This document shows positions 2,066-22,740 of a stretch of 25,683 nt of DNA, one piece after another. Positions within the stretch are counted from its first letter, which is position 1; every line of letters begins with the position of its first letter. The notes under the pieces were generated by a model. It made no database searches. It had not been told where the DNA came from and saw only the letters and a program-made list of their open reading frames with translations. The DNA is from a virus. Location of the stretch: IMG/VR virus record IMGVR_UViG_3300007519_000071, positions 1 through 25,683 of that record; one strand, 5' to 3'. A program made the position numbers and the translations under genes.

Positions 2066-3131
2066 TCCATTTTTCCTTAATTAATATTTTAAGTTCTTCT
2101 AACCTATTAGATAAGTTATCATCAGACCATACAATATTATAATCCATTCCAGCATTTTTTGCAAGGACTTCTCTATGTATATCTGATTTAGTAGCTTCAG
2201 CTAACGACATCCAAGGGTTTTTCCATTCTATATCATTACGAGGGTGCCAAAAACAACCATGATATTCAATTACAGTTTTTATAGAACTAATTGTAAAGTC
2301 ATAAAATTTTCCACCGTTATGACTAATATTCATATCTTTTATAAAAAATTCTCTAGAGCCTTTGATGCCAAAATATATCTTTTCTTTAGGTATTCCAAGT
2401 CTTCTGCAAAATTTATATAACGGTATAAAAAATCGTATAGATTCTTTTGAAACGCTACCACCAGAAAATTGAGTAGCAATTGACTTTAACTTACTCGCTT
2501 TCCATTTATCACATCTTACTTTCCATTTATTGTAACCATCAGTCTCGCCATATTTTAATTGTAATGAGTTTAAATCATTTTTCATATCACGTAAAAATGG
2601 TTCTCTAAGTATTTCAGATTCTTCTTTGTTATACCCTTTATGCTCCCAATACTTAAGAGAATGTTTACAAGTATCTCTTCCATAATTTTTGTTTTTAACT
2701 CTTTTAGCTTTACATTTTAAAGAGTTACCCTTTTGTATTTCTGATATTTTTAATTTAGCTTCTTGTTCAGTATAGCCGCGTCGTAACACCCAAAAATCTA
2801 CAGTTAAGATAGAAAAGTTTTTTGGCGTAGGTCTACGTTTTAACTTATCTGTGTATGCATTAGTAACATCGCTACCATATTTTATAGAAAGTCGTTCAAT
2901 TACAGACTTAGCTGATTGATACTTAAGATACTTATTTTCATAAAAATCTTCATTATTAATCAGTATATCAAATAGTGCATTAGCCTTTCTTTTCTTTGAA
3001 GATAGAGTATGTATATCTAAATCAATATGAGCTTGCATGATAGATATATAAGCATTTGATTTATCTTTACATAATTGTGTAAGATGATCTTTTACAAATT
3101 TATGTTCTAGTAATGTGTTAAGTTTTTTCAT
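2052..3131 (-). CDS. Free-standing Vsr-like homing endonuclease within the split gp41 gene
   Basis: The 359-residue protein ends in a Vsr/EDxHD-type nuclease domain: E261 in SREFF, D278 in FYDF, E289 and H291 in IEYHG, then FWHPRND, with a final Asp-rich helix. Before it are duplicated DNA-binding-looking units: FWVLRRGYTEQEA (about 113-125) and YWEHKGYNKEES (about 161-172), and KYG-containing stretches near 84 and 193. Endonucleases of this family are known to sit between the halves of genes broken by split inteins, where they spread the arrangement by cutting intein-less alleles. It lies exactly between IntN (stop 3200) and IntC (start 2065). A T4 late-type box lies 29 bases upstream of its start. 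The Shine-Dalgarno site is weak, which fits low or delayed expression. Confidence 0.88.
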   Translation of the reverse strand: MKKLNTLLEHKFVKDHLTQLCKDKSNAYISIMQAHIDLDIHTLSSKKRKANALFDILINNEDFYENKYLKYQSAKSVIERLSIKYGSDVTNAYTDKLKRRPTPKNFSILTVDFWVLRRGYTEQEAKLKISEIQKGNSLKCKAKRVKNKNYGRDTCKHSLKYWEHKGYNKEESEILREPFLRDMKNDLNSLQLKYGETDGYNKWKVRCDKWKASKLKSIATQFSGGSVSKESIRFFIPLYKFCRRLGIPKEKIYFGIKGSREFFIKDMNISHNGGKFYDFTISSIKTVIEYHGCFWHPRNDIEWKNPWMSLAEATKSDIHREVLAKNAGMDYNIVWSDDNLSNRLEELKILIKEKWNGRV

Positions 3132-3159
3132 TAAGTCTGCCGTTGTTGGTTATATAGAT

Positions 3160-3167
3160 TATTTATA
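3160..3167 (-). promoter_or_regulatory. T4-type late promoter box before the homing endonuclease
   Basis: The minus strand reads TATAAATA, the exact T4 late promoter core, in the 68-base gap between the IntN stop and the endonuclease start. Transcription would begin about six bases on, leaving a leader of about 23 bases before the ATG at 3131. The 8-mer is expected several times by chance in so AT-rich a window, so the intergenic position is what supports it. Confidence 0.55.
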
Positions 3168-3199
3168 CAAACTTAAATTTCCAGCAACAGCAGATTTAA

Positions 3200-4591
3200 T
3201 CATTTGCTATGTAACCTATCACCTATGCTAAGACCAGAATTAATACAACGTCTGCCATTATTAGAAGGAAATACATGATCACGAGAAACGATGATTGTCT
3301 TTCCAGATTTTAGTGTAATCTTTACGCATTCTTTAGGCTTTTTATGATGAACAAACATTGTTGTTTTAAATTCATCTTGAGAAGTAATTTGATCACCTGG
3401 GACAACATCTCCAATTTGTTTAACAGTATTATCCTTAAGACACACTGACTCACCAACATAAATGCAATCACTTGTATTGTTTAGGTCAACATCAGAATTA
3501 CCAAAGCCATCACGGTTTGATTGTGTAGCAGTTACGATTGGTAAATCAAACTCTACTGCCAGACCGCGTACTTCTTCTGCAATAGACTTAATATACGAAT
3601 ATGAATTGATTGCCCCGCCCATACCTTTCATACGTGATGATGCACAAATATTCAAATAGTCAATCATAATTATTTGTGGCACAAAGTTTTTCTTTAGCTT
3701 TAGTTCGTTCAATAGAGCTCGGAAGTGGCCTACATGAGCAGAACCAGTAGGATATTCTTTAATGATAAGCTTACCTACATTCTTTTTGACAATCTTATCA
3801 ATCTTCGATTCAAACATATCACGCGACATTTTGTCTAATTGGTCAATAGGTACATTCATTAAGTTTGCATCAATACGTTCTGCAATACGTTCCTCTGACA
3901 TTTCCAATGTAATATAAAGTACATTCTTACATTGTGACAGCGCAGATGCTGCTAGGTGACACATAAACAGAGACTTACCTACACCAGTAGACGCCATAGC
4001 AATATTCAATGTCTTATTTGGCAGACCGCCTTTGGTAATCTGATTCATATAGTCAAGATCAAATGGAATACGTGACTCAGTCTTATGATAAAACTCGTAA
4101 CGAGAATCTGCATCATTTATATAGTCATGGCCAACATTGGCATCAAAAGTAACTGCTAGAGCAGATGTCAAGAGTTCAGGCAATGCATTCTTAGTAAGAG
4201 TCTCATGTTTACCATCAATGATGTTAATAGATTCCATGATTGCAAGATATATTGCTCGGTCTTGACACCATTGCTCTGTTCGATCATATAACCATATTAA
4301 ATCAGACTCAGGAGTTATTTTAGAAATAGCATTAATGACTTCGGCCGCCTCGGTAAGTTGTTGGTCACTAGACTTATCATTTGAAGATAGTTCAATACCC
4401 AGAGCCTCAAATGTTGGCAAGTTATTATACTTATTGACAAATGAAATAATCTCATTAAAGAGAATAGCATGAGCACCTTCAAAATATTCTCGTTTTAAAA
4501 ACGGTATAACCTTACGAGTGTATTCTTCATTGCTTATCAAGTTCCTCAGTACCGTTGTCTGTATTTTCTGGTCCAATTCGATATTCTCCAC
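3200..4591 (-). CDS. 41: Replicative helicase gp41, N-terminal half with split-intein N
   Basis: This encodes the 5'-3' hexameric replicative helicase, N-terminal half. Residues 1 to about 160 are the gp41 N domain. The RecA-like domain follows, with Walker A STGVGKS (about 201-207), the TLEMSEE segment, LLNELKLKKNFVP and Walker B IIMIDYLNI. The helicase stops at NNTSD (residue 375). An 88-residue intein N fragment beginning at Cys376 is then fused in frame and ends the protein. Splicing with the fragment from 1487-2065 would give about 468 residues, close to T4 gp41 at 475. No ATG is available: the first start is GTG at 4591, and a TTG at 4576 has a well-placed GGAG nine bases upstream and may be the true start. 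It overlaps the preceding gene by about 50-65 bases. Confidence 0.92.
   Translation of the reverse strand: MENIELDQKIQTTVLRNLISNEEYTRKVIPFLKREYFEGAHAILFNEIISFVNKYNNLPTFEALGIELSSNDKSSDQQLTEAAEVINAISKITPESDLIWLYDRTEQWCQDRAIYLAIMESINIIDGKHETLTKNALPELLTSALAVTFDANVGHDYINDADSRYEFYHKTESRIPFDLDYMNQITKGGLPNKTLNIAMASTGVGKSLFMCHLAASALSQCKNVLYITLEMSEERIAERIDANLMNVPIDQLDKMSRDMFESKIDKIVKKNVGKLIIKEYPTGSAHVGHFRALLNELKLKKNFVPQIIMIDYLNICASSRMKGMGGAINSYSYIKSIAEEVRGLAVEFDLPIVTATQSNRDGFGNSDVDLNNTSDCIYVGESVCLKDNTVKQIGDVVPGDQITSQDEFKTTMFVHHKKPKECVKITLKSGKTIIVSRDHVFPSNNGRRCINSGLSIGDRLHSK
3203..3466 (-). other. Split-intein N-terminal fragment (IntN)
   Basis: 88 residues starting with the nucleophile Cys in CIYVGESVCLKDNTVKQIGD (block A) and continuing through VPGDQI to block B at TIIVSRDHVFPS, with the SxxH that replaces the common TxxH. 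The length and the ending GLSIGDRL match the N fragments of gp41-1 and gp41-8 type split inteins. A second Cys eight residues on was considered as the first residue, but only the first Cys gives a correct helicase junction (NNTSD|SFGVPATAD). Confidence 0.9.
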
Positions 4592-4880
4592 TGTCTAGTG
4601 CCGATGATATAATATATTGTAGTACTTCGCCAATATAATTTTTAAAGTTTGTATCTTCTTGTAGCATATCCTCGCGTAGAGGTGATTCAATAATGTGATA
4701 GTTGAATGAAAGGGTAGCATATTCATTATCGCCTTCAGCATCTACATTTACTTTTAGTTTGCCATATTGAAATACTGTGCCATTCCATTCGTTCTCGCCA
4801 ATAAGTTTGACATAGGAAGTTTCTTGGCCATCCTTTTCAACAAACTTATAGTGAGTCGAATCAATTACAGGGTTTGTCAT
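4527..4880 (-). CDS. Conserved phage protein between uvsX and gp41 (117 aa)
   Basis: An acidic 117-residue protein of unknown function. Similar small proteins containing YKFVE and a later YGK/L motif occur in this slot, between uvsX and gene 41, in marine T4-like phages; this is from memory and could not be checked by search. It begins with an ATGA overlap with the uvsX stop, so it is translationally coupled, and its last 50-65 bases overlap the start of gp41. No membrane segment or catalytic motif is visible. Its position inside the recombination-helicase operon suggests a replication-linked role, but this is inference. Confidence 0.75.
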   Translation of the reverse strand: MTNPVIDSTHYKFVEKDGQETSYVKLIGENEWNGTVFQYGKLKVNVDAEGDNEYATLSFNYHIIESPLREDMLQEDTNFKNYIGEVLQYIISSALDSGEYRIGPENTDNGTEELDKQ

Positions 4881-5956
4881 GCTGCTGCTTCCTCCTCATC
4901 GTCATATGATTCAGCAACTTCATTTTGGTCTCCTAGCATTGCTCGATGACCAATAGTATACTTTTCTTTAATGAAGTTAGCAAAGTCTGTATTGCTGAAG
5001 ATCGGTTCCCAAAACGTTTTATTCAATGTTTCTTTTTCACGTACCTTAGGTTGCATTAATTCTCCAGTCTCGCGGTCAATACGACAGTACCAACCGTTAG
5101 ATGGTTTGCCAACATAACCACCATCAAGGGCGACATCAAGTAAACCTGAATATCGCTCAATACCACCAGCCCATGAAACTGCAATTGGAATCTTTGACTT
5201 TTCTTTAACATAACGAGATTTTTCAATGTTGATAACAAAGTTATAACCAGTAACTTCAGTACCAGTCTTTTCTTGTTGTCGACCCATAATCCAAATGTTA
5301 GATGCCGAATAATATATGCCAGTGCCGCCTGACACAATTGCCTTTGGAAACAAACCAATTTCTTGATAAGTATGATTAATTGCAATCATAGGAATGTTCT
5401 TCATTGCAAGGTAAGGTGTTACCATACGGAATAAACCTTTAAGCGCTTTTGCGCGAGACATATCTGCAACTGATTTTTCATTGATTGCATCTTCTAGTTC
5501 TTTCTTTGATGCCAAGTTACCAACAGAATCGATTACAATAATAACTTTATCTCCACGCTCAATTGCTTCTAATTGATTGACAACATCAAACTTTAAATGT
5601 TCGACATCAACAATAGGCGTATGTAATACTCTAGTTGTATCAATACCAAATGATTCAAAGTATGAAGCTGGCGAACCAAATTCAGAATCATAAAACATCA
5701 TGATAGCTTCAGGATATTTTTTCAAATATGCTGCGGCCATCAATAACGCAAAGTTAGTTTTAAAATGTTTCGAAGGCCCAGCAAGAACCGTTAACCCTGG
5801 GGTCAGACCACCATCGATTGAACCAGACAAAGCAACATTAACCATTGGCACATCAGTTGATACCATATCTTTATCAGAAAAGAATTTAGATGTAGCAAGA
5901 ATTGACGTTTCTTTAATACGAGAATTCTTTTTAAGTTTATCCATTACAGATGACAT
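4877..5956 (-). CDS. uvsX: UvsX recombinase (RecA-like)
   Basis: UvsX is the phage RecA/Rad51-type strand-exchange protein used in recombination-dependent replication. The Walker A loop is GPSKHFKT (residues 60-67), matching the T4-family form, with Walker B VIIVIDSV (D143). The MSRAKALK and AINHTYQE segments follow, then a central beta-rich part, and the protein ends in the usual acidic tail (SYDDEEEAAA). The 359 residues compare with about 390 in T4. The ATG at 5956 has an AAGGAG site at good spacing. A strong promoter (5983-6011) overlaps the end of the upstream methyltransferase gene, so uvsX begins a new transcription unit containing gp41 and thyX. Confidence 0.97.
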   Translation of the reverse strand: MSSVMDKLKKNSRIKETSILATSKFFSDKDMVSTDVPMVNVALSGSIDGGLTPGLTVLAGPSKHFKTNFALLMAAAYLKKYPEAIMMFYDSEFGSPASYFESFGIDTTRVLHTPIVDVEHLKFDVVNQLEAIERGDKVIIVIDSVGNLASKKELEDAINEKSVADMSRAKALKGLFRMVTPYLAMKNIPMIAINHTYQEIGLFPKAIVSGGTGIYYSASNIWIMGRQQEKTGTEVTGYNFVINIEKSRYVKEKSKIPIAVSWAGGIERYSGLLDVALDGGYVGKPSNGWYCRIDRETGELMQPKVREKETLNKTFWEPIFSNTDFANFIKEKYTIGHRAMLGDQNEVAESYDDEEEAAA

Positions 5957-5982: not shown

Positions 5983-6011
5983 ATTATAACACAGAATTAA
6001 GTTTCTGTAAA
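5983..6011 (-). promoter_or_regulatory. Extended -10 promoter for uvsX
   Basis: The minus strand has TTTACA (6006-6011), a 17-base spacer and TATAAT (5983-5988), preceded by TGTGT, which gives the TGn extension. The methyltransferase stop codon TAA is contained in the -10 box. Transcription would start near 5976, about 20 bases before uvsX. Confidence 0.8.
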
Positions 6012-7270
6012 CTAAAAAATTCATCTAGTGCCATTGTATTACTAACTTTATCATCATCAGCAGCCGTAGTATATGTCATTGATGCATTAGATTGTTTTAG
6101 CAAGTCCGTTTTAATCGTATCAGTATTACCAGTAAGATATTCGATTACGTTTTCCATCATGTCGGCCGCTGTCGTGACTGGTACATTTTGACAAATTACA
6201 TTAGATGAAGTAACTGGTCGTTCGCCAATCAAGTTGAAGTCTTCTGGCATTTTCATAATGCGCAAACAATCGCGCAGTGTTAAATATTGGTCTTTAAATG
6301 GATTGACTAATGAATATGGAAGAGCACCAACTAATGATGGGATAATACCTTTAGGTACCGTTACACCATGTGCCCAGTAGCCTTTACCTGAATCAACTTT
6401 ACCTTGCATAGCACGAGCGCGTTCACCAAACTTTGTCTTAAAGTTATTCTCGTCCATCCAGTCTGCTACTTCATGAAGGCTACCAGAAATACGATCTGAC
6501 TGAACAATACAGTTAGTAGACTTTTCTAGTGTGTTATAATACTCTAAAATATTAGATGCGCCTGACTTATGAACACAATAAGCAATCCATGGATTAAGCA
6601 TTGGTTTCTCTTCATTAATCAGTACATTCATTGGATCATCTGCACGCATCTCCATCTTTAAGATATCTTCTACTGGTTCTGTATCGCGGCGGTAATATTT
6701 AAAGACTGGATTTTCTTCACCTTTAGTAAAGAAGTAAAAGGTACGAGGACGTTTCTGTGCCAGACCATGTAGACGTGATTCAGTATAATATAGATTAAGT
6801 ACATAACCGTATTTCTTACCAATCTCTTGAAGTTTATCTGCAACTTTCTTACCAGCAGTAGTAAATAGACGAGGAGCATTCTCTCCCCAAAAGACTTTAG
6901 GTTTAATTGACCCTAGCACATATTCTGTAGTAGTATACATCCATTCATTAACATTAGAGTCTGCATTAGATGTCGTTGATAAACTAGAGAGACCAGCACA
7001 AGGGCAAGTGGTCATAACAACATCGACTTGTTTAGTTGGAACATAATTTTCGTTACCAGGCGCATCTAGTAATACATATTCCTTATCCCATTTTTTAACA
7101 TCACGAAGATAATTAACAAAGTGAGAATCATTTCCAGCAAATGGCGTATATGATAGTACCCATTCTGGTAGACGATCATTCATAGCCTTCATTGTTCCAA
7201 TTACTTCTCCGCCTACTAATGGTACGATTGTTCCATATGTAATTGTCTCTCTTGTTAGTGATTGCGTCAT
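5984..7270 (-). CDS. C5-cytosine DNA methyltransferase homologue
   Basis: The 428-residue protein shows the ordered motifs of C5-cytosine methyltransferases: a divergent motif I (LVGGEVIG, about 18-25), motif IV with the catalytic Cys (TTCPCAGLSS, PC at 90-91), motif VI as GENAPRLF (about 129-135), motif VIII as AQKRPRTFYF (171-180), a target-recognition stretch, a motif IX-like LRDCLRIMKMPEDF, and motif X as QNVPVTTAADM near the C terminus. It is therefore expected to act on cytosine C5 in DNA. The oddity is its company: gene 42 in this window makes hydroxymethyl-dCMP, whose C5 is already occupied. It begins with an ATGA overlap after the glycosyltransferase and is coupled to it. Its gene end doubles as the uvsX promoter. 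Family confident; substrate open. Confidence 0.85.
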   Translation of the reverse strand: MTQSLTRETITYGTIVPLVGGEVIGTMKAMNDRLPEWVLSYTPFAGNDSHFVNYLRDVKKWDKEYVLLDAPGNENYVPTKQVDVVMTTCPCAGLSSLSTTSNADSNVNEWMYTTTEYVLGSIKPKVFWGENAPRLFTTAGKKVADKLQEIGKKYGYVLNLYYTESRLHGLAQKRPRTFYFFTKGEENPVFKYYRRDTEPVEDILKMEMRADDPMNVLINEEKPMLNPWIAYCVHKSGASNILEYYNTLEKSTNCIVQSDRISGSLHEVADWMDENNFKTKFGERARAMQGKVDSGKGYWAHGVTVPKGIIPSLVGALPYSLVNPFKDQYLTLRDCLRIMKMPEDFNLIGERPVTSSNVICQNVPVTTAADMMENVIEYLTGNTDTIKTDLLKQSNASMTYTTAADDDKVSNTMALDEFFSLQKLNSVL

Positions 7271-8520
7271 TGTGTGATTTCCTTGTAAGTGTTCATGATA
7301 ATATTGTTAATATGGTCTCCAGAATAATATTCTGGTTTTATCATATTCTTAATGTTATTTACCAGCGTATCATATGCATCTGGATTCTTTTCTAAAAACT
7401 CAATCTTTTTATATAAGTCTTGTGAACTGCTTATACGCAAAAATTCTGGGCACTTAAGATTGTTCTGTTGGTCATATGTTGGATGTAAGAATGGAATAAT
7501 ACCATAATGAGCCATTTCCCAAAACTTTGCAGTTACCCAACCTTTCTTGATAGGAATACAGAATGTATATTTAACTCGCGGTAACATTGCTTGTAAATCA
7601 TTAAACTTTTTAGGACCTTTAAATCTAATGTCTTCGCCAATCGTATCAGGATTCCATTTACCATACACATCGACATCTTCTACATAGTCAAGAATATATT
7701 TCTTTAGATCTTTATAACGAGATGGCGTGCCTTCGTTACATACAATCATAAACTTAATATCTTTAGTACCTGGGTCTGCCACTGCAGAATCATCTGCTTC
7801 AAAAAACGAATCAAGAGAAGCAACCTTTTCTACTATTGCAGACCCAGGTGTCTTATTGATTAGGAACAGCGTTTCCATAGCAGAATACAAACATTCGACA
7901 GTTTCGGTTTTCATGACTGCTTCGCTATAATTTTTCCATGTCCGCTGTTGTATGGTTTCAGTATATTGTGATAACACCTTATTAGGTAGTCGATACCAGT
8001 CACGAGCATTAGTTGGAAAGTACCTTGGATCATTAGAGACTAGCACATAAGGAAAGTCTGTCATATTGATAAAATCGATAATAGGCCCAGCATATTTAGA
8101 TAACATATCTATCGGCTGGGCCATCTTATCTGGTGTCATAACATTACGCGCCTTACCTAATACATTTGAAGTACCGGTTGGGCCTGCAATAAACACACCA
8201 TATTCCATTTTAGGTAATGATTCAAATATATGAGCCAAATATGATAGTCGATCTTTAGCACCTTCTGAACCAGTAGCAGTTCTCCATTCAACAAACTTTT
8301 CCCATATATTGATTACATTACCATGTTTGTTGATACGGTTACGCTCATGTTTATCAAGTCTGACATAATCAGACACACCAACTAAATAAAAATTGATATG
8401 TGGATTTTTATGGAATAATGTTTCATATAGAGCTGGTGCCTCATTGTCTCCGCCAATTGCGCCCCACTTTGACGAATCAAATAAAATTGATTTACCGACC
8501 TTGCCTACTGCTATGTTCAT
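7267..8520 (-). CDS. GT-B-like glycosyltransferase, possible DNA-base glycosyltransferase
   Basis: A 417-residue protein starting MNIAVGKVGKS and containing a conserved-looking FDSSKWGAIGGDNEAP near the N terminus. The C-terminal half resembles GT-B glycosyltransferases: IPIKKGWVTAKFWEMAHYG, then IIPFLHPTYD, L-x-x-P-x-F-L-R-I, and a run of helices of the kind that close the nucleotide-sugar site. No signal peptide or membrane helix is seen, so it works in the cytoplasm. Its neighbours are a HAD phosphatase and nucleotidyltransferase-kinase upstream and a cytosine methyltransferase downstream, with dCMP hydroxymethylase further up, which suggests transfer of a sugar to modified cytosine. This is inference. 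The start at 8520 makes an ATGA overlap with the HAD stop; an ATG at 8535 is also possible. Confidence 0.65.
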   Translation of the reverse strand: MNIAVGKVGKSILFDSSKWGAIGGDNEAPALYETLFHKNPHINFYLVGVSDYVRLDKHERNRINKHGNVINIWEKFVEWRTATGSEGAKDRLSYLAHIFESLPKMEYGVFIAGPTGTSNVLGKARNVMTPDKMAQPIDMLSKYAGPIIDFINMTDFPYVLVSNDPRYFPTNARDWYRLPNKVLSQYTETIQQRTWKNYSEAVMKTETVECLYSAMETLFLINKTPGSAIVEKVASLDSFFEADDSAVADPGTKDIKFMIVCNEGTPSRYKDLKKYILDYVEDVDVYGKWNPDTIGEDIRFKGPKKFNDLQAMLPRVKYTFCIPIKKGWVTAKFWEMAHYGIIPFLHPTYDQQNNLKCPEFLRISSSQDLYKKIEFLEKNPDAYDTLVNNIKNMIKPEYYSGDHINNIIMNTYKEITQ

Positions 8521-8873
8521 AGTGATCTTGTCCATTTTATAAAATCTTGTAGATTCATTCCCTTATCATCGACATAATATGTATCAGAATAAGGTTTGCC
8601 ATACTGAATCTCATCATACGGCACGAAGTGTTCTGCTAACCAATTAATAGTTATATCACCAATATCTGCTACTATTTTTTTGACATTGCCTGAATGAGTT
8701 ACCATACGTCTAGCAGAACAAATAATAATATGATAGTTCATTTCATGTAATTTTTGCATTTCTTCTATGACTTCAGTATTAGGCTTGGCTAGGCCATACT
8801 TATCATAACTAGTTTTAGCAGAATGATCTGGAAAGCAGATCGTATCATCAAGATCAAAGACTATAGTTTTCAT
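8517..8873 (-). CDS. Small HAD-superfamily phosphatase
   Basis: A 118-residue HAD hydrolase: motif I IVFDLDDTICF near the N terminus (nucleophile Asp and general-acid Asp, D-x-D), motif II in IIICSAR (Ser), a Lys region in VKKIVADIG, and the acidic end YYVDDKG. It has no large cap domain, like small HAD phosphatases found in capsule and sugar-nucleotide gene clusters. It sits between a nucleotidyltransferase-kinase and a glycosyltransferase, overlapping both, which suggests that it dephosphorylates a sugar phosphate or similar small molecule in that pathway. The Met at 8873 is preferred over 8888 because a GAG site lies upstream and homologues start right before motif I. The exact substrate is not visible. 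Confidence 0.75.
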   Translation of the reverse strand: MKTIVFDLDDTICFPDHSAKTSYDKYGLAKPNTEVIEEMQKLHEMNYHIIICSARRMVTHSGNVKKIVADIGDITINWLAEHFVPYDEIQYGKPYSDTYYVDDKGMNLQDFIKWTRSL

Positions 8874-10356
8874 GTTTAAGATACTCATTTACATAGCTAA
8901 GAAAGCGTTCTTGTCTAAGTTTATTATCATAGTGTAATGGTATGCAAGTTGCTAATAGTAAAAGACCGCCTTCAATAATAAGTTCAACTGGTAGGTTGTA
9001 CTCTTTAAGCTTGCGTACAAATACTTTTTTCACAATCATATTTTGTTCTACGCCAGCAACCATTACATTATAGCCATGATATAAGTCATGTGATAATTTA
9101 CACCAGTCATATAAGTCATCACCATAAGTACCAGCTATATTACCATAAGTACCGCGTGGATCAATCAATGTTATACGATCTGAATACTGATCATACAAGA
9201 TATTACCAAAATGTAAATCACCATGAACGCCCATACGAGGACGCGTTTCTTTATAAACGCGTCTGGCAATTTTATCAAGGGAAAGACCGTTTGGTATGTT
9301 AAGACCAGCTAACCTACTACTAGTTTTAGAGACCCACATTATTTCTGCATTAACATTGAAACTATTATTATATTCTGAACAGTTAGATCTTTGGTTGAAA
9401 TACTTTAGCTTAACATTAAAGACCTTGTCAATTAGATATTCCCAAAATGATTCAGGTAAATTTTCATACAACATTAAGTCAGACAATAGTACACCAGATT
9501 CATATGACATAATCAAATCAGTTGGATGCTTAAGAATACGCGGAACAAACATTCGTTGCTGTTGATTCAGTTTGCTATACCAATGCTTTTCATTCTTGTT
9601 TTGATTTATTGAGTTAATGTCATGATAGTCTGGCATTTTACATAAAGTATTCAGCTCACTATCGTACTCAATAGTATGGAATGCGCGTGTCTTTAATTTT
9701 AACAATGCTGCACATGTTTTATAGTATGATGGTAGATCACCAATGTCATACCAGTCATTAGCTATAACACACTGAAATGCTAATGTTGTTATATAACAAT
9801 AATCGATTAGTGCGCCTGATATTTCAGACGAATGAAACCTAAATGCTCTGGCAGCACAGTCACCATTGCTAAACGAATATAACCCTACAAGAGCAACCGT
9901 ATCATCAATAGACCTTGAAGGTTTATTAAAATACCCGATAGAACGATCCCACATACACCATGCCGACTGATCTTTTACTTCTTTACATAATAGAAAATCA
10001 GTACCTAGCTCCAAGTTATCATCAAGAATAATTGCATCGCCTAGCCATACAACTAAAGGCAATGTTGGATCGTTAAGAGCGCTTATTCCAATAGAAATTG
10101 CATCTCTGGGACCGTTAAGTTGTTCTTGCTTAACAATAGTTACAGTAGGGTGTCGCTTAGCGCAGTATTCTCTAATGTCATCAAGCTTGCCATCAACAAT
10201 AACAATTTGATTAATAACTGCTAATGCATTTGCACGTTCAATAATATAATCAATACAAGGCTTACCGTTGACACGAACCATTGCTTTTGATGTATTATTT
10301 GACAGAGGTCTTAAACGAGTAGCAGCACCAGCCGCAGGAATAACTAAGTTTATCAT
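8854..10356 (-). CDS. Nucleotidyltransferase fused to an aminoglycoside/choline-kinase-like domain
   Basis: The 500-residue product has two catalytic domains. Residues 1 to about 225 are a sugar-phosphate nucleotidyltransferase: IPAAGAATRLRPLSNNTSKA (about 6-25) is the nucleotide-binding loop, WLGDAI (about 104-109) holds the metal-binding Asp, and DWYDIGDLPSYY (201-212) is the usual late motif. Residues about 260-490 are a protein-kinase-fold small-molecule kinase: VHGDLHFGNILYD (377-389) is the catalytic loop and LIDPRG (397-402) the metal site. Such a fusion could phosphorylate a sugar or alcohol and then activate it as an NDP or CDP derivative. It begins its own transcription unit with a promoter at 10380-10408 and an AAGG site close to the ATG, and feeds into the HAD and glycosyltransferase genes. 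The substrate is unknown. Confidence 0.8.
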   Translation of the reverse strand: MINLVIPAAGAATRLRPLSNNTSKAMVRVNGKPCIDYIIERANALAVINQIVIVDGKLDDIREYCAKRHPTVTIVKQEQLNGPRDAISIGISALNDPTLPLVVWLGDAIILDDNLELGTDFLLCKEVKDQSAWCMWDRSIGYFNKPSRSIDDTVALVGLYSFSNGDCAARAFRFHSSEISGALIDYCYITTLAFQCVIANDWYDIGDLPSYYKTCAALLKLKTRAFHTIEYDSELNTLCKMPDYHDINSINQNKNEKHWYSKLNQQQRMFVPRILKHPTDLIMSYESGVLLSDLMLYENLPESFWEYLIDKVFNVKLKYFNQRSNCSEYNNSFNVNAEIMWVSKTSSRLAGLNIPNGLSLDKIARRVYKETRPRMGVHGDLHFGNILYDQYSDRITLIDPRGTYGNIAGTYGDDLYDWCKLSHDLYHGYNVMVAGVEQNMIVKKVFVRKLKEYNLPVELIIEGGLLLLATCIPLHYDNKLRQERFLSYVNEYLKHENYSL

Positions 10357-10379: not shown

Positions 10380-10408
10380 ATTATAACACATATCGGGTTA
10401 TTTGTATA
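10380..10408 (-). promoter_or_regulatory. Extended -10 promoter for the nucleotidyltransferase-kinase unit
   Basis: TATACA (10403-10408), a 17-base spacer and TATAAT (10380-10385) with TGTGT before it, on the minus strand. The stop codon of the dCMP deaminase gene lies inside the -10 box. The start point would be near 10373, only about 17 bases before the ATG at 10356. Confidence 0.78.
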
Positions 10409-10845
10409 CCACATTCTGAAAATATTTGTTCAGTATGTAATAACGATTCTTTCCATATATCAGCAACTTCTTCTTTGTTATCGCCTAATGTATATATGAC
10501 ACGCTTAATACCAACTTGAACAATGCCCTTTGCACATTCTGAACAAACTGGCAAACCGTACACATACATTGTTGCGCCGTCTAATGATGTACCGTTATAT
10601 GTAGCATTATATATGCAGTTCATTTCGGCATGAACAATGAACTTATATTTTACTTCTCTGTTTTCATAACGTTCTAGTTTATCTAACATACCGCGAGGAA
10701 AACCGTTGTAGCCTGTAGCAAGTACCTGACCCTTTTCAGATACTGCTACGGCTCCGATTTTACGTGACGGGTCAATGCTCCATGACGATACACTCAGTGC
10801 AAGACTTAAGTATCGTTTTGTCCATTTATCGTCACTTATGTTCAT
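10381..10845 (-). CDS. cd: dCMP deaminase
   Basis: Zinc-dependent deamination of dCMP (or hydroxymethyl-dCMP) to the dUMP series. The zinc and catalytic residues are all visible: HAEMN (H72, E74) and PVCSEC (C101, C104). The N-terminal half carries SIDPSRKIGAVAV and ATGYNGFPRG, typical of phage and cellular dCMP deaminases. The 154 residues are close to the family length. It is coupled by an ATGA overlap to the small HTH gene upstream, and its last codons, GTG TTA TAA, are also the extended -10 box of the next promoter. Together with ThyX and dCMP hydroxymethylase in this window, it sets the balance between thymidine and modified cytosine precursors. Confidence 0.93.
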   Translation of the reverse strand: MNISDDKWTKRYLSLALSVSSWSIDPSRKIGAVAVSEKGQVLATGYNGFPRGMLDKLERYENREVKYKFIVHAEMNCIYNATYNGTSLDGATMYVYGLPVCSECAKGIVQVGIKRVIYTLGDNKEEVADIWKESLLHTEQIFSECGIQITRYVL

Positions 10846-11153: not shown

Positions 11154-11834
11154 CTACTTAATCAAACCAAAATGTCTTTCATAGACATGTAGGTTTTGTA
11201 CTTGCCAGTAAATATTGCCTGGGTTTAAGTCTGCAAATATATTAAGATCTAAATAACGATCACATATAGATTCTAGCAAATGTTGCTGCCATGCATAATC
11301 ATTCTTATAACCGTAGATTGCATCGTTACTGCGCATCTGTACGACACAGTGTAATTGGCTATCACGTATGTAATATGTTACTGCATTTGTGCAAATAAAA
11401 TCATTCTTACCATTATCACTATAGTCAACCCATATTGATGGCCGAGTATAAATCATTGATGCACGACGGCTTGAGGAATTTTCTATTAGCTCGTTTACTA
11501 CTTGTGCAAATTGATTATTAAACTTATCAGAAAATACTAGATAGCCATAGTTTGAATTGATTTCACCATGTAAATTTGCAGTTGCTTTCCATGCTGCAGG
11601 CGGTTCACGACCATCACCATATATGTCATTAATGTTTGTCGATTCTGATTCATACCAATCAAGTTCTGCTTTAATATATTCTTCATTAGGCGTGCCAAAG
11701 ATAGCAGGTTCATCTGCAATAAATGATGCTCCTAATACCTCAATCATATTTTGACCAGAACGATCTTTTATAAAATTACCAGCAACATATTCATGTACGA
11801 ACATATCGCGCATATCGCGTACTGTCATTATCAT
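11154..11834 (-). CDS. 42: dCMP hydroxymethylase (T4 gp42 homologue)
   Basis: This enzyme makes 5-hydroxymethyl-dCMP from dCMP and methylenetetrahydrofolate, so that the phage can place hydroxymethylcytosine in its DNA. The match to T4 gp42 runs along the whole protein: EVLGASFIADEPAIFG, HGEINSNYG, RASMIYTRPS, then FICTN with Cys at residue 148, MRSND, and YKNDYAWQ with Asp at residue 179, ending in NLHVYERHF. In T4, Cys148 is the nucleophile and Asp179 sets the dCMP preference over dUMP; both fall at the same numbers here. It is 226 residues, against 246 in T4. The ATG at 11834 overlaps the preceding stop (TAATG) and has GGAG ten bases upstream. Confidence 0.95.
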   Translation of the reverse strand: MIMTVRDMRDMFVHEYVAGNFIKDRSGQNMIEVLGASFIADEPAIFGTPNEEYIKAELDWYESESTNINDIYGDGREPPAAWKATANLHGEINSNYGYLVFSDKFNNQFAQVVNELIENSSSRRASMIYTRPSIWVDYSDNGKNDFICTNAVTYYIRDSQLHCVVQMRSNDAIYGYKNDYAWQQHLLESICDRYLDLNIFADLNPGNIYWQVQNLHVYERHFGLIK

Positions 11835-12231: not shown

Positions 12232-12262
12232 TAGGTATTGTTGCAAAAATACAACAATATTA
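12232..12262 (-). terminator. Hairpin after the PrimPol-like gene, inverted-repeat copy 2
   Basis: The stem ATTGTTG (12237-12243) and CAACAAT (12252-12258) encloses an 8-base loop, extended by GGTA and TACC after a small bulge. It begins at the stop codon of the 12260-13207 gene and is followed by TATTTA on the minus strand. Twenty bases repeat the element at 61-82. It may be a weak terminator insulating the next promoter, or an operator. Confidence 0.5.
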
Positions 12263-13207
12263 CCTATTTTTATAGACAAATTCAAGGGCACGGTCTGCCT
12301 CGACAACAAGCGGTCTAGATTCATACCAGTTTCCAGTTTCTATGTCAAGCTCTGAACAAAGCGCAGATATTTCATGAGCAGTAATAGGATAGCCTTTAGT
12401 GATTGCATTAGCGGCTATCGATACCATCAATCGATACATTGTACGATACCAACCAGTTTCTGAAATGCCTTTGTATTCTTCTACAAGTTTTCTGGAAACA
12501 AATGGGCAGTCACGATAACCAGACCAATTGAACTTCTTTGTATTGTTTTTAGCAAGTTGTTCTTTACGATATGAAATGATTTCGTGCTGCATGCTTTCTG
12601 GTAGTCTGTCTATAAATGATGTACCAGTCATTTGCTTTGTCACAAACGAGTGTTTAGCCATTAGTTCAGATGGAACAATAAAGTTGCCGCCTGAGTTAGT
12701 GAATATGAAGTTATTTGCGTTTTCATAGTCACCAGGGATATAATACATACGTGAAAAGTCTTTAACCTGTTTGTCGCCCATCTCGCCAAATTCACTGTTC
12801 AGCGCATGCCAAAAATGTCTAATGTTTTCTGCAACAACAGCATAGGCCAACGGAAAAACAATACGGAACTTTGGTTTATCAATTGTGCTTGATGCAGTAG
12901 AATAACATACAAAGTAATAAGAACCATACTTAGCCAATAGCTCATCACGAAAATTATTTTCGTTCAGCACATGGTCATCGACATCTAGTGCAGCCCAACC
13001 AGCCCATGAAATAACATTCTTGTTTGCTCGTGTGGTATCTTCAAGATATATTGCTGGTGAAATAAGTTGAGCATCTTTCTTTGATTTACGTTTGATTGCA
13101 GAAAGACCATATAAAAGATGCTCGAACTCATTCCAGTTCGTAAAGCTCATTTGTTTATCCGTATACTTGTCATATATAGATTTGAATAGAGTTAAAGAAT
13201 ATACCAT
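12260..13207 (-). CDS. PrimPol-like (archaeo-eukaryotic) primase
   Basis: The 315-residue protein has features of the archaeo-eukaryotic primase/PrimPol fold: the acidic metal motif WAALDVDDH (about residues 71-79), a second motif in CYSTASSTIDKPKFRIVFPL, and DFSRMYYIPGDY, the Arg-Pro-Gly motif typical of plasmid and phage PrimPols. The last 100 residues, with GYRDCPFVSRKLVEEY and ETGWYRTMYRLMVSIA, look like a helical PriCT-type accessory domain. It probably makes primers or has polymerase activity for the phage. T4 uses a DnaG-type primase (gp61), which is not in this window. It overlaps the MazG-like stop by TAATG. Confidence 0.72.
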   Translation of the reverse strand: MVYSLTLFKSIYDKYTDKQMSFTNWNEFEHLLYGLSAIKRKSKKDAQLISPAIYLEDTTRANKNVISWAGWAALDVDDHVLNENNFRDELLAKYGSYYFVCYSTASSTIDKPKFRIVFPLAYAVVAENIRHFWHALNSEFGEMGDKQVKDFSRMYYIPGDYENANNFIFTNSGGNFIVPSELMAKHSFVTKQMTGTSFIDRLPESMQHEIISYRKEQLAKNNTKKFNWSGYRDCPFVSRKLVEEYKGISETGWYRTMYRLMVSIAANAITKGYPITAHEISALCSELDIETGNWYESRPLVVEADRALEFVYKNR

Positions 13208-14155: not shown

Positions 14156-17100
14156 TCAAGAGAAAAAGTCTTCAAGAGATACACTATTTTCATGTCGCCA
14201 GCCAACTGCATCAAGGATAGGCAGGATAGGCTTAAGAAATGCTTTTTCGAACTGTGTCTCATAGTCAATATACTTATGAAGTTTTAACTCAGGCGGTAAG
14301 TAACCAATATATGAAATAACATTTTGACGAACGGTATTTGGCATTTTAAGATAACAAAACTTTACTTTGTCCCCGTTACGAATAAGATCATTACGTTTAT
14401 CCAGACCAGCAGATAGCACAGCATTGTTATATGTAATGGCACCACGAACATGAATGGGACAACCACTTTTAAATATTGTATTTTTGTCTGTCCACTTATC
14501 GACATCAGATACACCACGTGGAAACGATACTTGCTCTGGCGGCAGACTACAAAAGTAATCTTTAAATGATGAGATTGCTTTTTGTGTATTTGCCTCTGAG
14601 CCTGATATGATTACTTTGAATAATTGTTTTAGAGCATCACGACAGACAGAAGGAGTCGAAGATTTAATTGCTTCAATACCCATGATCTTTAGTTCAGGAA
14701 CTGCATAACGAACACCTTCATTGTCATGCACGTTCAGAATATATCGCTTCTTAGCTGTCCAGATACCACGGTCTGCAATTGATTCACGTTTCATTTCCAT
14801 ACGTGCTTCATAACAGTTGAACCTATCAAACAGTTCGGCATATGAAACTTCTAATGCCTGACCAAATGTTTCTTCACATACCTTATCAAGAAAGTCAACA
14901 GGACTCTTAGGATTAAACTTATTGACCAGAGGACCAAAGTTAACATACAGAGAATTATGAACGCAAATATTATTACCAAAAAAGTTATGGTTATCTTCTA
15001 CTTCAATATCATATACCCATTCTTCGCATACGCCTAAACACTCTACTACAAAGTTATCACTAAACTCTATTATAGGTTCAATATTAGAGCCAACTAAATT
15101 TATAATATTATGAATTTTAGGATTTAAATTAGTTGGCTTAATATCGCTTATTACTAGACTAGTTTTATCCTGAACTATAATTGAGTGATCTTCAGTGACT
15201 GTTACAGATTCTCCGTTTGAATTAGTAATTTTAAAAAGAGTCTTTTTTACTTTATGAGCCATTACATACTTTACAGGCTTATATTCTAGTACACCACTAG
15301 AACTAATTGAAGGTGTTAAATCTGGCGGCGTAATTTTAACATAGTCTTCATTATAATGATCTTCTTTAATTATATTTCCAGTACAAGAATCAAAGTAATC
15401 AGAAATACTTATTGACTTACCATTAACGTTTATTATGGTTGACCCAACGACAGAATCAGTATCAATGGCGACAGTATAGTCAATTGCTTTAGTTTTAAGC
15501 AATGAATTCATCTTAGCATTGACTGCTCGCTCTGCCCATTGAATAACCATTTGACCAGTCAGTGTAATTGCTTCAGCAATACGCAAGTCAAAGTACCTGA
15601 AGTATGCATTACCCATTGCGCCATAAAGAGAGTTCAGTAATAACTTAACGGACATCTGTTGAGTATCAAGGTTGATAATTTCATGCTCAAGGATTAGCCT
15701 GCGTTGTTTATCAGAACTATCAACGGTCTCAAGTTCTTGCTTAAGCTTAATCATTCGCTTTTTGATAGCCTTACGCTCATTGTAATACTTAACAATGATA
15801 TCTGGAATAAAACCTTGCTTATCTTTTCTGAACTGAACTCCATTTACAGCAGTAGCATATGTAGGATCTTGTTCAGACATTCTGCCATTTAAACAAGTAT
15901 CGACATCAAACTGACCACGACCATAATGATCAGAAATAGTTTCGGGCGACATATTCCACTGAACAATAATGTTAGGATACAAAGAGTTTAAGTCAAACGA
16001 ACAGATCCATTCATGAATACCAACTTGTGGATCTTTGACATAACCGCCTGGGTAAGGTGCCTTAAAGTTATCCTTTGCTGGAGGAATAACAATGTTGCGA
16101 GAAGCTAAGTCTCGATAGATTATGCTTTCCCAGATACCAGTAGTACCAAACACGTCAGTATAGTTGACACCGCCACGATAGGCCATTGTCATTGCTAGAG
16201 TAATACAGCCAAGTTGTTCTTCTAGTCTATCAACAAGTTCAACGTCTTTGATGTTATATGATATGAATTTCTGAAAATTAGTTTCATATAGTTCATGCAG
16301 AGATGATACCTCGTCATATGATAATTTGTTTTCACCTAGCACAACATATGCAATATGGTCTAGTTTGTATGATTCTTGAGGACCATAAGTCAACACACCA
16401 AACTTTTGGAACAAGTCATAATAGTCTAGTTGTTGAATACCATACAGTTCATATGCATCAAGTTTTTTACCTTTGATTGCAATTTGACGATAGTTAACAA
16501 TTTCCCACGGTGAAAGTTTCTTAGACATGTCTTCACCCATCACTCGTGTAATACGATTGACAAGATAAGGTATATCGAATAGACGAGTATTCCAACCAGT
16601 AACAATATCTGGTGTATTGTTAGGGCTATGCCAAAAGTCTAGGAAGTTAAGTAAGAGTTTAATTTCATCATCACACTTAGTATATACGATAGCTGAGTCT
16701 TTAATATCAAACTCAGATGTATCATAGTCTTGAGTACCCCAGACATAGTATGTATTATCTTTGCTTAGCTTTAGAGCAATGGAAATGACAGGATACTTTG
16801 CATCTTCAGGAAATGGAAACCCATCTTTTGAGTAGACCTCAATATCAATTGTACCAATGTTAACTCTTTCGCGGCTGAAGGAATCAATTGTATTTGGAAA
16901 CTTATCATGAATGTATTGAGTGGTATAGTTTGTGTTGCCATAGACTTTGAAATTATCTACATCTTTATACATAGCAATGAAGTCTTTAGCATCACGCATT
17001 GTATCAAACTCACGTGGCTCTACTGGAGTACCATCGACTGAATGATAACCAGTAGGTTTATTTGTTTGAAGGTATAGCGTAGGAGAGAATTTAATCTTAC

Positions 17101-17188
17101 GTGCAACTGATGTACCAGTACCGTCATAACCACGATACAGGATGTTGTTGCCGTACCTATTTACACAAGTATAAAAACCGTCGTTCAT
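14156..17188 (-). CDS. 43: DNA polymerase gp43 with in-frame intein
   Basis: Family B replicative polymerase with proofreading. Exo I is TIDIEVYS (D115, E117), Exo II WNTRLFDIPYL and Exo III YNIKDVELVD. Polymerase motif A is FDLNSLYPNI, motif B KLLLNSLYGAMGN and motif C IDTD|S. A 167-residue intein (579-745) interrupts motif C between Asp578 and the Ser of SLYVNFG. After splicing the enzyme would be about 843 residues, against 898 in T4. The KKRYI motif follows in the C-terminal part. The open frame reaches 17206, but GGGAG lies six bases before the ATG at 17188 and the promoter's start point is near 17206, so 17188 is chosen. It is the first gene of its unit. Confidence 0.96.
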   Translation of the reverse strand: MNDGFYTCVNRYGNNILYRGYDGTGTSVARKIKFSPTLYLQTNKPTGYHSVDGTPVEPREFDTMRDAKDFIAMYKDVDNFKVYGNTNYTTQYIHDKFPNTIDSFSRERVNIGTIDIEVYSKDGFPFPEDAKYPVISIALKLSKDNTYYVWGTQDYDTSEFDIKDSAIVYTKCDDEIKLLLNFLDFWHSPNNTPDIVTGWNTRLFDIPYLVNRITRVMGEDMSKKLSPWEIVNYRQIAIKGKKLDAYELYGIQQLDYYDLFQKFGVLTYGPQESYKLDHIAYVVLGENKLSYDEVSSLHELYETNFQKFISYNIKDVELVDRLEEQLGCITLAMTMAYRGGVNYTDVFGTTGIWESIIYRDLASRNIVIPPAKDNFKAPYPGGYVKDPQVGIHEWICSFDLNSLYPNIIVQWNMSPETISDHYGRGQFDVDTCLNGRMSEQDPTYATAVNGVQFRKDKQGFIPDIIVKYYNERKAIKKRMIKLKQELETVDSSDKQRRLILEHEIINLDTQQMSVKLLLNSLYGAMGNAYFRYFDLRIAEAITLTGQMVIQWAERAVNAKMNSLLKTKAIDYTVAIDTDSVVGSTIINVNGKSISISDYFDSCTGNIIKEDHYNEDYVKITPPDLTPSISSSGVLEYKPVKYVMAHKVKKTLFKITNSNGESVTVTEDHSIIVQDKTSLVISDIKPTNLNPKIHNIINLVGSNIEPIIEFSDNFVVECLGVCEEWVYDIEVEDNHNFFGNNICVHNSLYVNFGPLVNKFNPKSPVDFLDKVCEETFGQALEVSYAELFDRFNCYEARMEMKRESIADRGIWTAKKRYILNVHDNEGVRYAVPELKIMGIEAIKSSTPSVCRDALKQLFKVIISGSEANTQKAISSFKDYFCSLPPEQVSFPRGVSDVDKWTDKNTIFKSGCPIHVRGAITYNNAVLSAGLDKRNDLIRNGDKVKFCYLKMPNTVRQNVISYIGYLPPELKLHKYIDYETQFEKAFLKPILPILDAVGWRHENSVSLEDFFS
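14954..15454 (-). other. DNA polymerase mini-intein (167 aa)
   Basis: The intein starts SVVGSTIINVNG (Ser1 nucleophile), has block B VTVTEDHSIIV with the TxxH pattern, and ends WVYDIEVEDNHNFFGNNICVHN before Ser+1, with a normal penultimate His and terminal Asn. It sits at the DTD|S position used by polymerase inteins of archaea and some viruses. No LAGLIDADG, HNH or other endonuclease domain fits in its 167 residues, so it is a splicing-only mini-intein. Confidence 0.93.
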
Positions 17189-17212
17189 CAGTAACTCCCA
17201 TAACAATATAAT

Positions 17213-18863: not shown

Positions 18864-19683
18864 AATTACTAATTTCCTTGTTACAGTCATGTCTCATATC
18901 GATACACCTGCAAAATTTATCTGGCATTGCAAATGCAACACTATTCTTTTGACGATACATAATTGCTTCTGGTGAATTGAACATGCCATGACCGCCTAAT
19001 ACAATCCATGCCGGATTGTTATAACATAGACTAACAGGAACAATCCAACCAACGCCGCCTACTGTATATCGTGCAGACTGTGTCAGAGCTAACAATTCTT
19101 TTACGCCTAACTGACCATCATGGAACTTTATATCTGCATAAGGTTCTGGACTGACTAACCATTCGTCAATCATATTTATATCTCCAATAGAGATAATTTT
19201 AATGCCTATGTCTTTTAATATTTCAGCAGACCGTGCAATGTACTCAGGCTTAGGATTCCTTGCAGAATTAAACCATTCTTTACGTTCAGTTGATGGTCTA
19301 ATTAATGCATATTCTCCAAGGTCTTGAATCCATGGAAATTCTGATCTAAAATCTGGTAAGTCAAAACGTGTAGCCTTTACTCCAAATGATACTGCTAACT
19401 CTTTTCGAATTCCACGAAAACCTATAGGCCTACTATAATGGATTTGTTTAACATTTTTAACTTTGTCTAGCTCAATATCTTCCCAGACAATATTAGGATC
19501 ATCTTTTAAGACATTCTTTGCCTGAGTTCTTAATTTAGTATTTGGTCGAATATACTTAACATTTTCTAGGCCTTGATATATTTGTGGCCATGCTGTCTCA
19601 AGATACACGTCTTCTTTGATATTTTTAATAAAGGCTCGTTGATAGATATTATCTCCGAGTCCTTTCATACCACGAATGTACAT
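18829..19683 (-). CDS. Glycosyltransferase, heptosyltransferase (GT9)-like
   Basis: The 284 residues recall GT9 glycosyltransferases of the ADP-heptose:LPS type: RGMKGLGDNIYQRAFIKNI at the N terminus is the G-x-G-D loop. YALIRPSTERKEW and YIARSAEILKDIGIKIISIG mark the nucleotide-sugar half, and SARYTVGGVGWIVPVSLCYNNPAWIVLGG the late G-rich motif. It may alter host LPS, decorate a phage protein or act on DNA. It begins at ATG 19683, overlapping the RegA stop (TAATG). It and the methyltransferase form a two-gene pair between regA and hsp20; in T4, regA is followed directly by gene 43, so this is an insertion relative to T4. Confidence 0.72.
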   Translation of the reverse strand: MYIRGMKGLGDNIYQRAFIKNIKEDVYLETAWPQIYQGLENVKYIRPNTKLRTQAKNVLKDDPNIVWEDIELDKVKNVKQIHYSRPIGFRGIRKELAVSFGVKATRFDLPDFRSEFPWIQDLGEYALIRPSTERKEWFNSARNPKPEYIARSAEILKDIGIKIISIGDINMIDEWLVSPEPYADIKFHDGQLGVKELLALTQSARYTVGGVGWIVPVSLCYNNPAWIVLGGHGMFNSPEAIMYRQKNSVAFAMPDKFCRCIDMRHDCNKEISNYEQQFTDWLRR

Positions 19684-20120
19684 TATCTTGGTTGATGCGA
19701 AGGAACAGATCCAATATTATACTTTGGGCAAAGTTCCCATTCATCTTTTTCACGAAATGATATGACTTTAATTTGTCGAAGAGGGGCACGATTTTCCATA
19801 CGTTCTGCAGATACAGCAGTCAATAAACCCCAGTCAGATAACAACGTTGTAATGGTATTACGACGTTGTACATCATTTTCTAAAAGGTTTGATGGTTTAC
19901 CGTCAAGTAAAAACAATTCTTTAAAGTGTACAATAAAGTATCGTCCTTGTTTATGAAGAATATGACAAGACTGATATAGTTTGTTTTCTTTACGAGATGC
20001 TACACCAATTCGTGTCAGAGTTTCTTTAATCTTTAAAAAATCATCAGGCTCATTGAGCACTACCTCTAACATCATTTCTGGTACCCAGTCGATTGGGTCT
20101 AAGTTATTTTGATTGTCCAC
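19683..20120 (-). CDS. regA: RegA translational repressor
   Basis: RegA binds the ribosome sites of early phage mRNAs, including the clamp-loader genes, and shuts off their translation. The match to T4 RegA is clear: DDFLKIKETLTRIGVASRK, LYQSCHILHKQGRYFIVHFKE, DVQRRNTITTLLSDWGL, and KVISFREKDEWELCPKYNIG. It carries about 15 extra N-terminal residues compared with T4. The chosen start is GTG at 20120 with AGGA nine bases upstream; an internal Met near residue 16 lies closer to the T4 start but has a poor ribosome site. The GTG overlaps the end of the second gp62 3' copy, just as regA normally overlaps gene 62. Confidence 0.93.
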   Translation of the reverse strand: MDNQNNLDPIDWVPEMMLEVVLNEPDDFLKIKETLTRIGVASRKENKLYQSCHILHKQGRYFIVHFKELFLLDGKPSNLLENDVQRRNTITTLLSDWGLLTAVSAERMENRAPLRQIKVISFREKDEWELCPKYNIGSVPSHQPR

Positions 20121-21801: not shown

Positions 21802-22740
21802 TCATTTCCATTCAATCGAAGCCATTAGCTCTGTCATACATGCCACAACATTTAACTCATGATCAGCCACAAATGCGTTTTTAAACTGATAGTCTGCCAA
21901 GATCAATACAATTTGTGGTACAGACTGAGGCTGAACATAGTCTAGCATTACGTCATATACTTTACGAAAGATTGCTTGTGGTTCGACATCAATGTTTTCG
22001 ACAACCCAGCGTCGCATAACTTTAAAGTCTTTATCTTTCAGAGACTTCATTAATACCTTGACATTATCTTCTGACATATTGACAAGTACACCAGAATCGA
22101 TCTTACCAGATATTGCATAACGCTGGCATTCATTTAATATACGGCGCCAGTCTGGAAAATGCTTTTCAATCAATTTAGCTAGAGCTTGTGGCTCAAAGAT
22201 TACATTTTCTTGAGTAAGAATTGTACCTAACCGTTTGAAAAACTCAGATGCCATTTTTGGTTTTTCTGCATTAGGTATACCAAACTCATATACAGAACAT
22301 CGTGAATGGAGTGGTGTAATGATTCGATTCTTAAAGTTACAAGTCAGAATAAATCTGCAGTTCTGAGAGAATTCTTCAATAAAACCACGAAGCGCTGGTT
22401 GTGTTGAGTTAGGGTTTGTATAGTCGGCCTCGTCAAGAATGATAACTTTATAGCCACCAGATAACGATATAGTAGAAGCAAACTGTTTAATTTTACCACG
22501 GAGAGTATCAATATTACCTTCTTCTGAGCCGTTGATAAGAATATAATCTAGACCAAGTTCATTACATAGCGCTCGGGCAACTGTAGTTTTCCCTACGCCA
22601 GCAGTACCAGAAAACAGCATGTTTGGCAGTTCACCAGTCTTTAAGATTTCAGAAAATGTATCTTTGATTGACTTTGGTAAAATACAATCAGCAATACGTT
22701 GAGGCCTATAACGTTCGACCCAAAGGAATTCATTTCTCAT
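21802..22740 (-). CDS. 44: Clamp loader large subunit gp44
   Basis: An AAA+ ATPase of 312 residues, 319 in T4. The N terminus FLWVERYRPQRIADCILP is typical of clamp loaders. Walker A is SGTAGVGKTTVA (about 44-55), Walker B VIILDEADY (about 98-106), sensor 1 is in FILTCNFKNRI, and the SRC arginine-finger motif follows in LHSRCSVYEF. The collar domain makes up the C-terminal third. It loads the gp45 ring with gp62. A GGAG site precedes the ATG, and a promoter lies at 22760-22788, so it starts a transcription unit for gp44, dexA, the membrane protein and gp62. Confidence 0.97.
   Translation of the reverse strand: MRNEFLWVERYRPQRIADCILPKSIKDTFSEILKTGELPNMLFSGTAGVGKTTVARALCNELGLDYILINGSEEGNIDTLRGKIKQFASTISLSGGYKVIILDEADYTNPNSTQPALRGFIEEFSQNCRFILTCNFKNRIITPLHSRCSVYEFGIPNAEKPKMASEFFKRLGTILTQENVIFEPQALAKLIEKHFPDWRRILNECQRYAISGKIDSGVLVNMSEDNVKVLMKSLKDKDFKVMRRWVVENIDVEPQAIFRKVYDVMLDYVQPQSVPQIVLILADYQFKNAFVADHELNVVACMTELMASIEWK

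Follow-up and report, generated by a model that had tools for sequence, protein, structure and literature searches.

Introduction

Textbooks treat the replisome of phage T4 as a model, its primosome being a single unit formed by gp61 and gp41. T4 gp61 has a zinc-binding domain besides its DnaG/TOPRIM fold. Cryo-EM places it on a hairpin of the gp41 N-terminal domain (NTD), with a contact range of 104–118 (PMC10359460). The T4 Core Genome table, which covers Core and Quasicore genes, lists gene 61 together with gene 41 (PMC2993671). Archaeo-eukaryotic primases (AEPs) are widespread among phages, where they occur almost as often as DnaG-like primases (PMC5862659). Among AEPs of solved structure, the closest to the enzyme described here is the PrimPol of cyanophage S-2L (6ZP9), an All3500-like AEP of 737 aa that has an extra C-terminal region and belongs to another replication module. 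More distant are NrS-1 PrimPol (N300) and pRN1 ORF904, which share a two-domain layout (catalytic domain and helix bundle) and are fused to their own helicase. In ORF904, the helix-bundle-type C-terminal domain is needed for priming (PMC8718748). S-2L PrimPol polymerises, yet lacks primase activity in the standard assays described in PMC8065100, and an AEP/PrimPol fold therefore does not prove priming.

Outside the NAR 2016 survey (doi 10.1093/nar/gkw322), our literature search returned no account of a PrimPol replacing gp61 in a T4-type phage, and a search for papers naming phage C48C1, a marine relative that bears the same primase family, found nothing. The gene itself is already known under the label “DNA primase”; what appears to be new is a primase swap inside a T4-type replisome.

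A PrimPol-type gene within a T4-type replication block

The window analysed here is an entire virus record of 25,683 bases (IMGVR_UViG_3300007519_000071), which is a genome fragment. It carries a T4-like replication module comprising gp45 (23509–24198), gp44 (21802–22740), regA (19683–20120), a family-B gp43 DNA polymerase with an intein (14156–17206, minus strand; phrog_262 E 8e-300; PF14890 at residues 629–751), the UvsX recombinase (4877–5956, minus strand; phrog_97 E 6.7e-93) and the gp41 replicative helicase. The last is split by an intein (1487–4591, minus strand), the N-terminal extein and the intein start lying at 3200–4591 (minus strand; phrog_19 E 2.1e-102, with weak Hint/intein matches), and the intein end and C-terminal extein at 1487–2065 (minus strand; phrog_19 E 1.1e-16, profile 522–590). 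A 359-aa ORF located inside it (2052–3131) has a weak match to a Vsr-type endonuclease (PF03852, E 0.0097). A dCMP deaminase (10381–10845) and a gene-42-type enzyme with a dCMP hydroxymethylase/thymidylate synthase fold (11154–11834, minus strand; phrog_160 E 4.5e-45; PF00303 E 2e-14) are also encoded. Near these two genes, the minus strand at 5984–10356 holds C5-methyltransferase-like, glycosyltransferase-like, HAD/PNKP-like and nucleotidyltransferase-like genes, which with their neighbours probably form a cytosine hypermodification cluster.

A 315-aa ORF occupies exactly 12260–13207 on the minus strand, between gp43 and the gene-42-type gene. An earlier note on this DNA had placed a PrimPol-like primase there, and the three motifs on which it relied, DVDD (residues 75–78), KPKFRIVFPL and SRMYYIPG, were all found in the translation. 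The protein matched the “DNA primase” profile of PHROG 9765 (E 1.7e-50, residues 3–251), its weaker profile matches being phage primase-helicase PHROGs. Because of this match and of the hundreds of homologues described below, the ORF is not a chance one. Searches of Pfam-A gave no family at E ≤ 0.1 and no primase family, PF13362 was not found in the window, phrog_47 (the T4 gp61 profile) did not match the 315-aa protein, and no PDB chain was significant by sequence (best E 0.45 with phmmer and 1.3 with a profile).

Nine homologues were detected at E ≤ 1e-3 in 50,697 phage records, of which six had at least 80% query coverage, namely Phage C48C1, 48% identical, and five records of Vibrio phages (26–27%). 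In IMG/VR, 45 PrimPol loci were obtained. A profile search yielded at least 580 PrimPol homologues among at least 599 pattern matches, and a search with the C48C1 protein confirmed at least 600 of at least 600 pattern matches, 80 being retained from each search; a scan with the PrimPol of Vibrio phage V6Aob returned no match.

Predicted fold and catalytic residues

An AlphaFold2 model was built on a 63-sequence alignment (mean pLDDT 88.6, pTM 0.62). Two domains were predicted, a catalytic palm at about residues 1–189 and a helix-bundle-like domain at about residues 226–315 (12263–12532, minus strand), with model helices at 239–314. When the model was compared with the PDB using Foldseek, the sole match at E ≤ 0.001 was the catalytic domain of S-2L PrimPol (6zp9, E 1.6e-4), to which VIA-align superposed 148 residues at 3.7 Å (Z 8.8). 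The subsequent VIA-align rows were mainly AEP enzymes (RepB', CAPP, Prim-PolC, LigD and NrS-1), and the 78 BFVD matches at E ≤ 0.001 were largely phage primase-helicases. For the C-terminal domain, alignment with residues 274–368 of the pRN1 primase-polymerase (3m1m) gave a Z of 4.9 over 77 residues, a value equalled by unrelated helical chains (designed and spidroin bundles). The putative two-domain layout would be that of NrS-1 PrimPol and pRN1 ORF904 (VIA Z of about 5), from which the primase here differs in being a separate protein.

The metal ligands expected of an AEP were recognised in motif I (hhhDhD/E) and motif III (D/E). Motif I corresponds to D75-V-D77-D78 (12974–12985, minus strand), where D75 and D77 were invariant in the 63 homologous sequences and position 78 was D in 55 and E in 6 of them. 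Motifs III/IV correspond to D145...S152-R153-M-Y-Y-I-P158 (12734–12775, minus strand), in which D145, Q147, K149, D150, R153, Y156 and P158 were likewise present in 63/63. The order of carboxylates is the same as in S-2L PrimPol (E85/D87/D88/D146 against D75/D77/D78/D145). A profile alignment to the latter by hhalign was not significant (E 0.32); in its register, D145 falls on S-2L D146 and R153 on R154, the roles of the S-2L residues being taken from PMC8065100, and the assignment of D145 to motif III rests on the fold together with this register of E 0.32. Loss of the metal ligands, which the earlier note had named as evidence against its proposal, was not seen, Asp75, Asp77 and Asp145 being kept in 63/63.

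Motif II (sxH) departs from the usual pattern. At the position inferred from the alignment register (12863–12871, minus strand), the His is absent and K113, F114 and R115 are invariant (63/63), R115 being the candidate stand-in for it. S-2L PrimPol carries His118 in this motif whereas the enzyme here carries Arg. Such a change has precedents: the motif II His is replaced by Gln, Tyr, Arg or Lys in known AEP families, Arg or Lys being found in DR0530-like AEPs (PMC5862659); given these substitutions, the superfamily as a whole is not defined by this His. Position 54 (Tyr in 43 of the 63 sequences, Phe in the other 20) lies near the S-2L steric-gate Tyr63 by motif I spacing and weakly hints at dNTP use and DNA primers. 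Taken by its predicted fold and metal ligands, the 315-aa protein (12260–13207) is a member of the AEP superfamily, as the earlier note had proposed.

Another reading is that the protein serves as an additional DNA polymerase that hardly primes, if at all, in phages that lack a dedicated primase. The nearest solved fold, that of S-2L PrimPol, is indeed that of a polymerase without primase activity in the in vitro work reported in PMC8065100. However, a complete family-B replicase, gp43, adjoins the gene, so that a second one is not needed, and a helix-bundle-like C-terminal domain is predicted and conserved, such a domain being needed for priming by pRN1 ORF904 (PMC8718748). A non-priming polymerase is hence considered very improbable.

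Absence of gp61 from PrimPol carriers

The earlier note had seen no gp61 in the window, and this held when a gp61 HMM was applied: the best E was 0.67, i.e., chance level, with a model made from 81 cyanophage-type gp61s, T4 held out, that recovers T4 gp61 at 3.6e-64. As the window is a fragment, gp61 was sought in its relatives. T4 gp61 belongs to PHROG 47, and whole records were searched with phrog_47. The first search covered 34 records, namely 25 IMG/VR PrimPol records (from the 45 loci, the 20 on contigs below 14 kb being left out), four named PrimPol phages (C48C1 and three Vibrio phages) and five gp61-type controls. No match was obtained in the 29 PrimPol records, and all five controls matched at E 1.5e-84 or better. 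The profile was also silent in 23 long PrimPol records of up to 160 kb, two of them repeated from the 29-record set. A gp61 elsewhere in the genome, the other finding that the earlier note had set against its proposal, was thus encountered in none of 50 distinct PrimPol records, most of which are fragments; they include the complete circular C48C1 and contigs of 160, 151, 145 and 135 kb. C48C1 is the sole closed genome of the marine clade, Vibrio phages V6Aob and henriette 12B8 being recorded as complete. Contigs of 135, 121 and 91 kb stand for the gene-42 subtype, the one nearest the window. In the annotation of C48C1, the single “DNA primase” is the PrimPol-family gene (WJE87912.1, PHROG 9765), and the missing gp61 is unmentioned in the record.

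PrimPol might still be an addition to a gp61 that has diverged too far, is split or lies beyond the assembled sequence, and the fragmentary state of the window and of most IMG/VR records leaves some room for this. Yet phrog_47 matched eight of eight further T4-superclade phages at E 4.8e-54 or better, bringing the T4-type controls to 13/13, and it reaches even the more distant T4 relatives Rhizobium RL2RES (4.8e-54) and SRB7757 (4.4e-63). In the complete C48C1, the gp61 HMM run with hmmsearch --max gave a best E of 0.35, at chance. PF08275 (DNAG_N) found nothing in ten PrimPol records, including C48C1 and seven long ones, while matching four of five gp61 carriers. PF13155 (Toprim_2) was empty in the same ten records; it tests only for an ordinary DnaG, because T4 and S-T4 are missed as well. 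A hidden gp61 consequently retains hardly any probability.

The exclusion was observed in both directions. PHROG 9765 was present in 6/6 PrimPol records and in none of the five gp61 carriers, nor in 14 further gp61 carriers, many of them fragments (0/19 in total).

Gene order and helicase partners

Gene order was surveyed in 201 IMG/VR PrimPol loci, many of which are near-copies. Wherever the respective side was seen, gp43 lay upstream on the same strand (173/173), and uvsX (130/130) and gp41 (107/107) lay downstream. In the 104 loci with both sides visible, PrimPol was always located between gp43 and uvsX or gp41. C48C1 has the same gp43/uvsX-gp41 arrangement. Cyanophage S-T4 has no PrimPol at this place: its gp43 is followed by uvsX-like and gp41 genes, and gp61 lies further on, adjoining a ribonucleotide reductase gene. 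A gp41 was found in the four named PrimPol phages (4/4). Of the 25 IMG/VR PrimPol records, 16 matched it at E 1e-100 or better, and 12 of 13 long PrimPol records contain it. The gp41 of the window is the probable helicase partner of PrimPol.

This constancy bears on whether PrimPol is instead an accessory enzyme for translesion synthesis or repriming where DNA is modified or damaged, lagging-strand priming being ensured by host DnaG, by RNA transcripts/R-loops or by recombination. Many AEPs act in repair or lesion bypass, and mutants of T4 gene 61 show a DNA-delay phenotype, not a complete null one. In addition, the window holds a gene-42-type enzyme together with C5-methyltransferase-like and glycosyltransferase-like proteins. 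However, PrimPol is syntenic with replisome genes in 104/104 loci, whereas the PrimPol–uvsX interval contains gene 42 in only 20 of them, an epimerase without gene 42 in 69 and neither in 15. Furthermore, gp61 is absent from all 50 PrimPol records searched, while an accessory enzyme should sometimes co-occur with gp61, and none of the 19 gp61 carriers has PrimPol. An accessory role in place of replicative priming is therefore unlikely. The suggestion of the earlier note that the protein primes across modified or damaged DNA found no specific support, and the scarcity of gene 42 in the interval led us to reject a modified-DNA link as the main role; such priming may exist as an extra activity.

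Other neighbourhoods were found outside the marine clade. Vibrio phages henriette 12B8, V6Aob and 2.058.O carry the same PrimPol family (26–27% identity) and gp41 but no gp61; there, PrimPol is not by gp43, uvsX or gp41 and comes just after UvsY, being followed by a Dda-like helicase gene. By gene content, these three phages show the same gp61-to-PrimPol swap. In GTDB, 13 contigs contain the PrimPol family, 11 in MAG/bin assemblies and two being Sphingomonas contigs (L349, 6532–8951; L350, 6568–8957), in which the PrimPol gene overlaps a free-standing VapE/DUF5906 helicase gene; a phage portal gene lies nearby in one of the two. The occurrence of the same primase family beside different helicases fits a primase working with its helicase in trans.

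Probable displacement of gp61 and its possible consequences

Given that gp61 was found in none of the 50 PrimPol records and that the metal ligands are kept, the proposal of the earlier note that the protein may replace gp61 is supported at the genomic level, neither of the two adverse findings it had envisaged having emerged. The protein very probably acts as replicative primase in a T4-type replisome that has lost gp61, whose place a non-homologous AEP primase with two domains would have taken. The best reading of the locus is that, in a marine clade adjacent to the cyanophages, a primase of the DnaG type underwent non-orthologous displacement. Compared with the T4 primosome, gp43, gp44/62, gp45, uvsX and gp41 are in common and the job is probably the same, i.e., making primers for gp43; unlike gp61, the enzyme here would consist of an AEP palm and a helix-bundle-like domain, and it has no sequence relation to gp61. 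In contrast to the 737-aa S-2L PrimPol, it is a free-standing 315-aa gene beside gp41.

Most likely, the AEP primase synthesises short primers where gp41 exposes the lagging-strand template; gp43 would extend them, and the primase would be coupled to gp41 physically or functionally. A more specific scheme, put forward tentatively, is a T4-type replisome in which the AEP enzyme works in trans with gp41, its primers are DNA instead of RNA, and the primosome of the marine clade has been rebuilt around it. Within this scheme, the loss of gp61 and the failure to find the helicase loader gp59 in 11/11 marine PrimPol records, including C48C1 and long ones, would mean that helicase recruitment and priming are unlike those of T4. 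A widespread marine sister group of cyanophages that keeps gp41 with its primase swapped would show that an unrelated primase can serve as the basis of a rebuilt primosome, and would offer a natural experiment on what gp41 requires from its primase. Besides, a free-standing AEP enzyme of 315 aa is convenient for enzymology.

Divergence of the gp41 contact surface was considered as a trace of the swap and rejected. The gp41 positions that distinguish PrimPol carriers from gp61-carrying cyanophages were not significantly concentrated in the published contact range 104–118 (p 0.06, 0.42 and 1.0). For the helical NTD hairpin taken as 96–135, where they looked concentrated, Fisher p values at three thresholds were 0.0014, 0.003 and 0.17; they are not used as evidence because this boundary was drawn after seeing the positions.

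Evolutionary history

Two changes of primase must be assumed on the gp41 trees, although a single PrimPol clade was not rejected (AU p 0.099). With few outgroups, the marine PrimPol rows were paraphyletic to the gp61 cyanophages (81/72). After eight outgroups were added and 17 near-duplicate PrimPol rows dropped, they grouped together (93/89) and had the gp61 cyanophages as their sister (83/76), with the Vibrio phages apart. From these gp41 sequences, the polarity of the swap is only moderately supported.

A link between the loss of gp59 and the primase swap was also rejected. The gp59 profile recovers 7/7 held-out gp59s, and gp59 is missing from gp61 carriers too, namely S-T4, Rhizobium RL2RES and six of seven gp61-carrying IMG/VR records (one of 188 kb, the others shorter fragments), while the three Vibrio PrimPol phages retain it, unlike the marine PrimPol records tested. 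Hence, its loss is not tied to the swap.

Finally, cyanophage S-TIM5 (JQ245707), which we take not to be T4-type, had no phrog_47 match. Its uncharacterised 328-aa protein H6WG13 matched the AlphaFold2 model (Foldseek E 9.5e-12) and is possibly another free-standing PrimPol in a cyanomyovirus.
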